64,000 nt of DNA from contig NZ_JAODOR010000004.1 of NCBI RefSeq assembly GCF_025398275.1, positions 1-64,000 of the forward strand, in the 5' to 3' direction. A program made the position numbers and the translations under genes. This document shows positions 49,294 through 50,557 of the stretch, piece after piece (position 1 is the stretch's first letter; each line of letters starts with the position of its first letter). The stretch comes from Microbacterium memoriense. GTDB lineage: Bacteria > Actinomycetota > Actinomycetes > Actinomycetales > Microbacteriaceae. The notes beneath the pieces were generated by a model that had not been told where the DNA came from, searched no databases, and worked only from the letters and a program-made list of their open reading frames with translations.

Positions 49294-49340
49294 GTCAATC
49301 TTCTCTTGACAGCCAGTAGTGTCAAGAATAGATTGACACT
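49294..49340 (+). promoter_or_regulatory. Consensus promoter with two tandem GTCAA-N7-TTGAC operators
   Basis: -35 TTGACA (49306-49311), 17-bp spacer, -10 TAGATT (49329-49334), ATG 6 nt later. Two copies of GTCAA-N7-TTGAC (49294-49310 and 49321-49337) lie 27 bp apart, the first over the -35 and the second over the -10; the second extends to AGTGTCAA/TTGACACT (49318-49340). This is the best promoter in the window and clearly repressible. Confidence 0.88.
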
Positions 49341-49598
49341 ATGACCACGACATCAGACAGTGCTTCGCGCACCCTCCGTCGCATCACTCTCGTCTCGATC
49401 GTCACCTTCGCCCTCGGCGCGATCATCGTCCTGTGTGGGATCGGCCTGGACTGGGGCGGATTCGGCGGTGGCATGGCGATCGGCGCCGGCGGCGGCCTCT
49501 GCCTCGTCGGCGCGTACTTCGCCGGCTTCGCCAACGGCTTCCGGCGGGGTCCGGGCAGTGGGGCCTCGTGGTTGCCCAGTCGCGGCCCGGCGGAATGA
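49341..49598 (+). CDS. Small two-helix membrane protein under operator control
   Basis: 85 aa. Two TM segments (~residues 14-33 and ~42-64, the second very Gly-rich: GGGMAIGAGGGLCLVGAYF) and a basic C-terminus. No family recognised. Its ATG is 6 nt after the -10, so the mRNA is leaderless. The stop overlaps the start of the following HTH protein (ATGA), making the two a translationally coupled pair. Confidence 0.8.
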   Translation: MTTTSDSASRTLRRITLVSIVTFALGAIIVLCGIGLDWGGFGGGMAIGAGGGLCLVGAYFAGFANGFRRGPGSGASWLPSRGPAE

Positions 49599-50146
49599 GT
49601 GAGCTGGCCGACGCCGTCGGACGCGCCGTCGTCGACGCGGCAGGAGTTTCCGGCGACACCCTCGGCATGGACGACCACCTCGCGCTCGTCTCCGCGAGCG
49701 CCCGGGCCGAAGACGCCGCACGCGCCCTCTTGCAGCGAGCTGTCTCGGCGGCCCGTGCCAGTGGTGCCAGTTGGGCGGTGATCGGCGGCGAACTGCGCAT
49801 GTCCCGCCAGGCGGCGCAGCAGCGCTTCGGCGGGGCGGCGGCGTCTGCCGACAGCGACGTGTCGGACCAGGAGACGTCCTCCGTGCCGGAGGAGCGCTGG
49901 TTGGGCCCCGTGACGGCTTTCGACGAGATGGCTGAGCTCGATCTCGCCGGACGTGTGGGGTGGCGCACCGTCGAGGTGGGCATGTTCACGCATCGAATGA
50001 TCCGCACCCCCACGCAGTGGGCGCATCGCCGCATCCTGTGGCGCGCCTCGCTTGCGACTGAGCGGGCGGAAGGGTGGATCGTCGGTTGCCGCGCATTCCC
50101 GTGGATCTACCTGGTGCGCGACCTCGGAGTACCGGCGGAGTCCTGA
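49595..50146 (+). CDS. Putative HTH regulator paired with a membrane protein
   Basis: 183 aa. Residues ~57-78 (SWAVIGGELRMSRQAAQQRF) have the look of a helix-turn-helix of the type found in small actinobacterial DNA-binding proteins. The C-terminal half (WLGPVTAFDEMAEL, then GWRTVEVGMFTHRMIRTPTQWAHRR) is unfamiliar to me. As the only DNA-binding candidate in the pair, it may bind the tandem operators at 49294-49340 and autoregulate. ATG overlaps the preceding stop by 4 bp. No known system name. Confidence 0.7.
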   Translation: MSELADAVGRAVVDAAGVSGDTLGMDDHLALVSASARAEDAARALLQRAVSAARASGASWAVIGGELRMSRQAAQQRFGGAAASADSDVSDQETSSVPEERWLGPVTAFDEMAELDLAGRVGWRTVEVGMFTHRMIRTPTQWAHRRILWRASLATERAEGWIVGCRAFPWIYLVRDLGVPAES

Positions 50147-50162
50147 CAGAAGGATCACAAAC

Positions 50163-50182
50163 TGTTCTATTTGTTATAGAAT
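50163..50182 (+). promoter_or_regulatory. GntR operator and -10 box
   Basis: TTCTAT (50165-50170), 5 bp, ATAGAA (50176-50181): inverted repeat overlapping the -10 TAGAAT (50177-50182), which lies 6 nt before the GntR start codon. Typical autoregulatory site of a YtrA-type GntR regulator. Confidence 0.7.
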
Positions 50183-50188
50183 ACAGTC

Positions 50189-50546
50189 ATGCTCCTGCGC
50201 ATCGATCCCCACAGTGCCGAGCCGCTGTTCGCCCAAGTGGCGGCGGCCGTGCGCGCCGATGTCGCGGCGGGGCGCCTGCGCGTCGGAGAGCGGCTGCCGG
50301 CGGCACGCGACGTCGCGAAGGCTGCGGACATCAATCTGCACACCGTCCTGCGGGCCTATCAGGTCCTCCGCGATGAGGGGCTCGTCGACATGCGGCGCGG
50401 TCGTGGTGCGGTGATCACGGACGCCGCCGCGGCCATCGCCGCACTCCAGGGTGACATCGCCGCACTCCGAGAGCGTGCCCGCGCTCTCGGTCTCTCGCCC
50501 GACACATTGGCCTCCCTCCTCCGCGAGGGCGACGAAGGGAACTCTC

Positions 50547-50557
<11 letters not shown>
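50189..50557 (+). CDS. GntR-family regulator, YtrA subfamily
   Basis: 122 aa. Winged-helix domain (PLFAQVAAAVRADVAAGRLRVGERLPAARDVAKAADINLHTVLRAYQVLRDEGLV) and a short helical dimerisation tail, the YtrA layout. Leaderless start. Overlaps the downstream DUF1648 gene by 11 bp; such pairs usually control membrane-transport or envelope functions. Confidence 0.92.

Follow-up and report, generated by a model that had tools for sequence, protein, structure and literature searches.

A probable ClpC2-type autorepressor operon with a doubled operator and a two-helix membrane protein in Microbacterium memoriense

The locus at positions 49294-50146 of the window, the 64,000-nucleotide stretch of Microbacterium memoriense DNA that was analysed, is a real and well-conserved module that represents a variant of the ClpC2-type system and not an unknown system. 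We regard it with good confidence as an autoregulated two-gene operon, in which a dimer of the encoded 183-aa HTH protein would occupy both palindromes of the promoter, its C-terminal domain would serve as sensor, and a membrane protein would be co-induced as partner. The first-pass annotation could not match the locus to a described system, but clpC2 has the same operator architecture (Taylor et al. 2023, PMC10030653), and proteins of the HTH family, among them a DUF2812 fusion, are described in PMC13284704.

Table 1. Features of the locus, with positions in the window
Feature	Positions	Strand	Basis or remark
Operator O1, GTCAATCTTCTCTTGAC	49294-49310	+	Exact GTCAA-N7-TTGAC match; -35 element within right half
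-35 element, TTGACA	49306-49311	+	Direct reading; spacer 17 bp
Operator O2, GTCAAGAATAGATTGAC	49321-49337	+	Exact GTCAA-N7-TTGAC match; contains -10 element
-10 element, TAGATT	49329-49334	+	Direct reading
85-aa protein, two predicted membrane helices	49341-49598	+	ORF reading; no family matches
WLPSR tail motif, residues 77-81 of membrane protein	49569-49583	+	Tail conserved in relatives
183-aa HTH protein, probable autorepressor	49595-50146	+	ATGA overlap with membrane protein gene
N-terminal HTH domain, residues 25-85, ClpC2/RelI family	49667-49849	+	PDB matches; AF2 model
C-terminal alpha/beta domain, residues 100-180	49892-50134	+	AF2; hhalign to DUF2812

The two operators lie 27 bp apart, start to start, and both are exact and located over the core promoter elements where the first-pass annotation had placed them. 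O1 overlaps the -35 element by its right half only, and the outer bases of O2 widen its palindrome to TAGTGTCAA-N7-TTGACACTA. The ATG start codon at 49341 is only 7 nt past the -10 element, so that the transcript from the promoter at 49306-49334 is probably leaderless. From the base composition approximately 0.6 single sites and 2e-6 doubled sites are expected by chance in the genome; five single and two doubled sites are observed, versus two and none, respectively, for a reversed-pattern control. A lone third site (C22:204910) is located within an ORF and is consistent with chance. The ORFs of the two-helix membrane protein and the HTH protein overlap by ATGA, which agrees with the coupling of the two genes in the earlier reading. 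Further downstream, at 50160-50557, lies an apparently leaderless GntR-family gene, whose ATG is immediately preceded by an imperfect palindrome, CTGTTCTAT...ATAGAATACAG; the next gene encodes a DUF1648 membrane protein. No functional link to these genes is claimed, since the flanks vary in relatives, as judged from crude ORF lists.

On sequence comparison, the HTH of the 183-aa protein belongs to the ClpC2/RelI family. Residues 27-82 match RelI (PDB entry 9SDC) with E=1.2e-7 as a single sequence and 3.6e-15 as a profile, and a weak match is found to the N-domain of ClpC2 (PDB entry 8ADA; E=0.019). The AF2 model of the domain has a pLDDT of 91.6, with the recognition helix at approximately residues 71-78. 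Homology of the HTH thus coincides with a doubled operator over a leaderless promoter, the combination by which membership of the ClpC2/RelI type was judged.

The C-terminal half, for which the first-pass annotation had proposed structure prediction, is confidently predicted by AF2 to adopt an alpha/beta fold (pLDDT 96). Its conservation equals that of the HTH, with E111, W123, H133, W142, H144, R146, W161, W170, Y172 and R175 as invariant residues. A Pfam search of the 183-aa protein gave no match, the gathering score of DUF2812 (PF11193) not being reached; among 20 family members DUF2812 was matched by one (E=0.07) and Clp_N by none. Alignment to DUF2812 with hhalign, covering 68 columns, yields a probability of 83.6 and a score of 34.7, versus 22.7 for the best of 200 column shuffles and 9.1 for the reversed control, which suggests that the domain is a distant relative of DUF2812. 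Searches for DUF2812 at order and phylum level yielded too few members. Since Clp_N is not matched and the alpha/beta fold is different, the C-terminal Clp_N repeats of ClpC2 are lacking. Comparison of the C-terminal half with the PDB (Foldseek, VIA-align) revealed nothing convincing, from which a new fold does not follow. By analogy, the domain is the probable sensor or partner-binding half of the protein.

The association between operator and protein was followed in both directions. The forward comparison covers 54 loci encoding full-length proteins of the 183-aa type (L006-L010 and L036-L084). Two exact sites, 27-30 bp apart, are present in 50 of these. Of the remaining four, one combines an exact site with a near one, two retain a single exact site, and L073, on a MAG contig, has none. 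The last operator ends 2-6 nt upstream of the first start codon, which is that of a small membrane protein gene in 35 loci and of the HTH gene itself in the other 19; when the membrane gene is absent, the operator remains on the HTH gene. The combination of operator and gene pair that the first-pass annotation had suggested looking for in other actinobacteria recurs among these relatives. Outside the actinobacteria, a Deinococcus plasmid (NZ_CP097152.1; L159, 2080-2830) carries three exact operators with 28-bp spacing and the same protein, the HTH gene being preceded by a leaderless ORF of 29 codons; a similar ORF of 30 codons is present in L067. Two Streptomyces plasmids contain, respectively, two exact sites followed by a membrane gene and an HTH gene (L161), and one exact site plus one close to exact (L160). 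Whether or not the membrane gene is present, operator and HTH gene are kept together in differing neighbourhoods, even in Deinococcus, as expected of the self-contained module proposed earlier.

In the reverse direction genomes were scanned for the doubled operator only, without protein information. It occurs in 10 of 150 family genomes and 80 of 297 class genomes, and the reversed pattern has no match in any genome listed in either scan. An HTH is encoded directly downstream at E<1e-3 in 37 of the 40 doubled-operator places examined, or 38 if L099, with the HTH at the C-terminus, is included; behind the doubled operators of L113 and L128 no HTH was detected. Putative C45-peptidase-like genes start 3 nt past the doubled operators of L099 and L128. 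All ten family genomes with a doubled operator have an HTH match, versus 31 of 150 overall (P=4e-8). The genome of the window has only two such HTH genes, and these stand behind the only two doubled operators that it contains. One of them encodes the 183-aa protein and the other, a paralogue, a 186-aa HTH-DUF3887-type protein (G000:C22:393382-394000, equal to L004 1501-2109; ORF C22:393430-393990), with the same half-sites. In L108 a ClpX C4 zinc finger (Pfam E=2.5e-14) is fused to the HTH behind a doubled operator; its sequence suggests the ClpX equivalent of the decoy or sensor ClpC2.

The forward and reverse tests, together with the pairing of two HTH genes with two doubled operators in one genome, argue that the 183-aa protein is its own repressor, which very probably shuts off its operon via the two operators. 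The conserved operator-HTH pairing across loci likewise supports tight operator control by a cognate DNA-binding protein, as put forward in the first-pass annotation. Chance and a global regulator are ruled out as explanations, since doubled sites are missing in the reversed controls and stand almost only before ClpC2/RelI-type HTH genes. The paralogue, with its identical half-sites, brings up another reading, in which a different regulator of the ClpC2 or DUF3887 type reads the operators and the 183-aa protein has some other function. We consider this very improbable, because each of the two HTH genes has a doubled operator of its own and, in relatives, the operator tracks the 183-aa protein.

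In the autorepression model, a dimer of the 183-aa protein would use its N-terminal HTH to bind each GTCAA-N7-TTGAC palindrome, as the comparison of loci strongly suggests. Occupation of both palindromes would cover the -35 and -10 elements and keep the leaderless operon off. The DUF2812-like C-terminal domain, in place of the cyclomarin-binding domain, would by analogy sense a ligand or partner, upon which the DNA would be released and both genes induced. Against the model weigh the HTH of RelI, which in the crystal contacts RelS, the assignment of DNA contact to the C-terminal domain by the ClpC2 authors, and the dispensability of the membrane protein. More speculatively, the co-induced membrane protein would act together with the C-terminal half at the membrane; it could be an output with a protective effect on the envelope, or a tether whose cytosolic tail sequesters the repressor.

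Arginines flank both hydrophobic segments of the membrane protein, which according to the positive-inside rule places its N- and C-termini probably in the cytosol. A W[LRI]P[SA] tail is present in 22 of the 35 loci where the membrane gene comes first, and the WLPSR-type tail is duplicated in Nocardioides and Arthrobacter (L047 and L052). The tail codons differ synonymously among loci, with the residues kept, which indicates that the protein itself is what is conserved. In 21 of the 22 loci the tail accompanies a C-terminal domain of the HTH protein that starts with RWLGP or RWISP, a start that is missing from all other loci; this co-occurrence may reflect the shared ancestry of one clade. A second type of membrane protein, with a conserved tail of roughly LD-x-L-x-PL instead of WLPSR, occurs in L094, L129, L160 and L161, and the membrane protein of Cryobacterium appears unrelated. 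The membrane protein shows no similarity to any family searched. Taken over all loci, its gene appears to be a common but dispensable passenger.

Two readings assign the membrane protein a more specific role. It could be a sensor that binds the C-terminal domain with its WLPSR tail and, on a signal, pulls the repressor to the membrane, which would refine the autorepression model. The pairing of WxP[SA] tails with the RWLGP/RWISP start, the duplication of the tail in two genera, and the DUF2812 proteins that combine the domain with two membrane helices in a single chain are consistent with such a role. However, the pairing is open to the clade explanation and loci without the membrane gene retain the same repressor layout, and we rate the refinement as doubtful. 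A toxin-antitoxin pair, with the membrane protein as toxin and the HTH protein as both antitoxin and repressor, as in RelS-RelI, is considerably less probable. RelI is the closest among solved structures to the HTH, the first gene would be the toxin gene as in RelS-RelI, and the membrane protein is small and tightly repressed. Nevertheless, the HTH gene comes first, with no membrane gene, in 19 of 54 loci, merely 29-30-codon upstream ORFs are retained in the Deinococcus plasmid and L067, and the extra C-terminal domain is conserved as well as the HTH. Moreover, the PDB search gave no match between the membrane protein and RelS, and the PADLOC models matched neither the 85-aa nor the 183-aa protein. 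The toxin-like role suggested in the first-pass annotation thus finds no direct support. A RelS-type toxin, a defence system and a phage origin were rejected, as the searches gave no matches; PHROG 686 matches the HTH only.

The proteins behind the doubled operator share the HTH, and the remainder is wholly different: a Clp_N-type half (ClpC2-like, by resemblance), DUF3887, a DUF2812-like domain, the ClpX zinc finger, or almost nothing. Operators common to proteins that share only the N-terminal HTH argue that this domain is the likely reader of the operator, and not the C-terminal domain proposed for ClpC2. R185A/R189A led the ClpC2 authors to assign DNA contact to the C-terminal domain (PMC10030653). 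The crystal structure of the ClpC2 N-domain (8ADA) ends at residue 72, and the alignment reaches IGKSMG, just short of the recognition helix; the other crystallised construct begins at residue 94 (PMC10030653), so that the recognition helix is contained in neither structure. The R185A/R189A data are not contradicted, since indirect effects or an additional contact could account for them. A broader generalisation, possible but short of an even chance, would make the ClpC2-type HTH an autorepressor cassette of general use, in which the N-terminal domain reads a fixed doubled operator and the halves that act as sensor or decoy (Clp_N, ClpX zinc finger, DUF3887, DUF2812-like) are exchangeable; here a split DUF2812 sensor and the two-helix membrane protein would report on the membrane via the WLPSR tail. 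The result is a testable rule, by which one operator and one HTH domain go with many exchangeable sensor halves and which can be recognised from sequence throughout the actinobacteria. It also suggests a revised site of DNA contact in ClpC2, which senses an antibiotic in M. tuberculosis. DUF2812 is scarcely mentioned in the literature searched, and the defined promoter offers a reporter for finding the signal of the DUF2812-type domain.

Among known systems ClpC2 (Rv2667), an autorepressor as well as a cyclomarin sensor and sponge, shares with the locus the operator sequence, its doubling over the -35 and -10 elements, the leaderless start and an N-terminal HTH-type domain (PMC10030653). The clpC2 operator, CGTCAAC-n5-GTTGACG, is often repeated over both elements of a leaderless promoter; ClpC2 binds it and represses itself, as shown by EMSA and reporter assays, and cyclomarin A lifts the repression (PMC10030653). 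Unlike ClpC2, the protein described here has a C-terminal half that is not Clp_N, and its gene is preceded by that of a membrane protein. RelI shares the HTH (profile E=3.6e-15 to 9SDC), which in the crystal contacts RelS. The RelI paper traces this HTH to ClpC2 and names homologues in which it is joined to DUF3887 or DUF2812, but gives neither an operator at relS-relI nor evidence that the HTH binds DNA (PMC13284704). These DUF2812 fusions are probably the family of the 183-aa protein. In contrast to RelS-RelI, operators are present at the locus, the neighbour is a two-helix membrane protein instead of an RNase T1/RelE-like RelS toxin, and the 183-aa type is often part of an operon instead of standing alone. 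In the readable DUF2812 proteins the domain is followed by two membrane helices, and a PadR-like sequence lies upstream of most of them. Such PadR and DUF2812-TM-TM pairs (L132-L157) share with the locus a DNA-binding protein, a DUF2812-type domain and two membrane helices; there DUF2812 is fused to the membrane helices, whereas here the DUF2812-like domain is fused to the DNA-binding domain. The DUF2812 loci thus appear to hold the same three parts in another arrangement, which we count in favour of the autorepression model.
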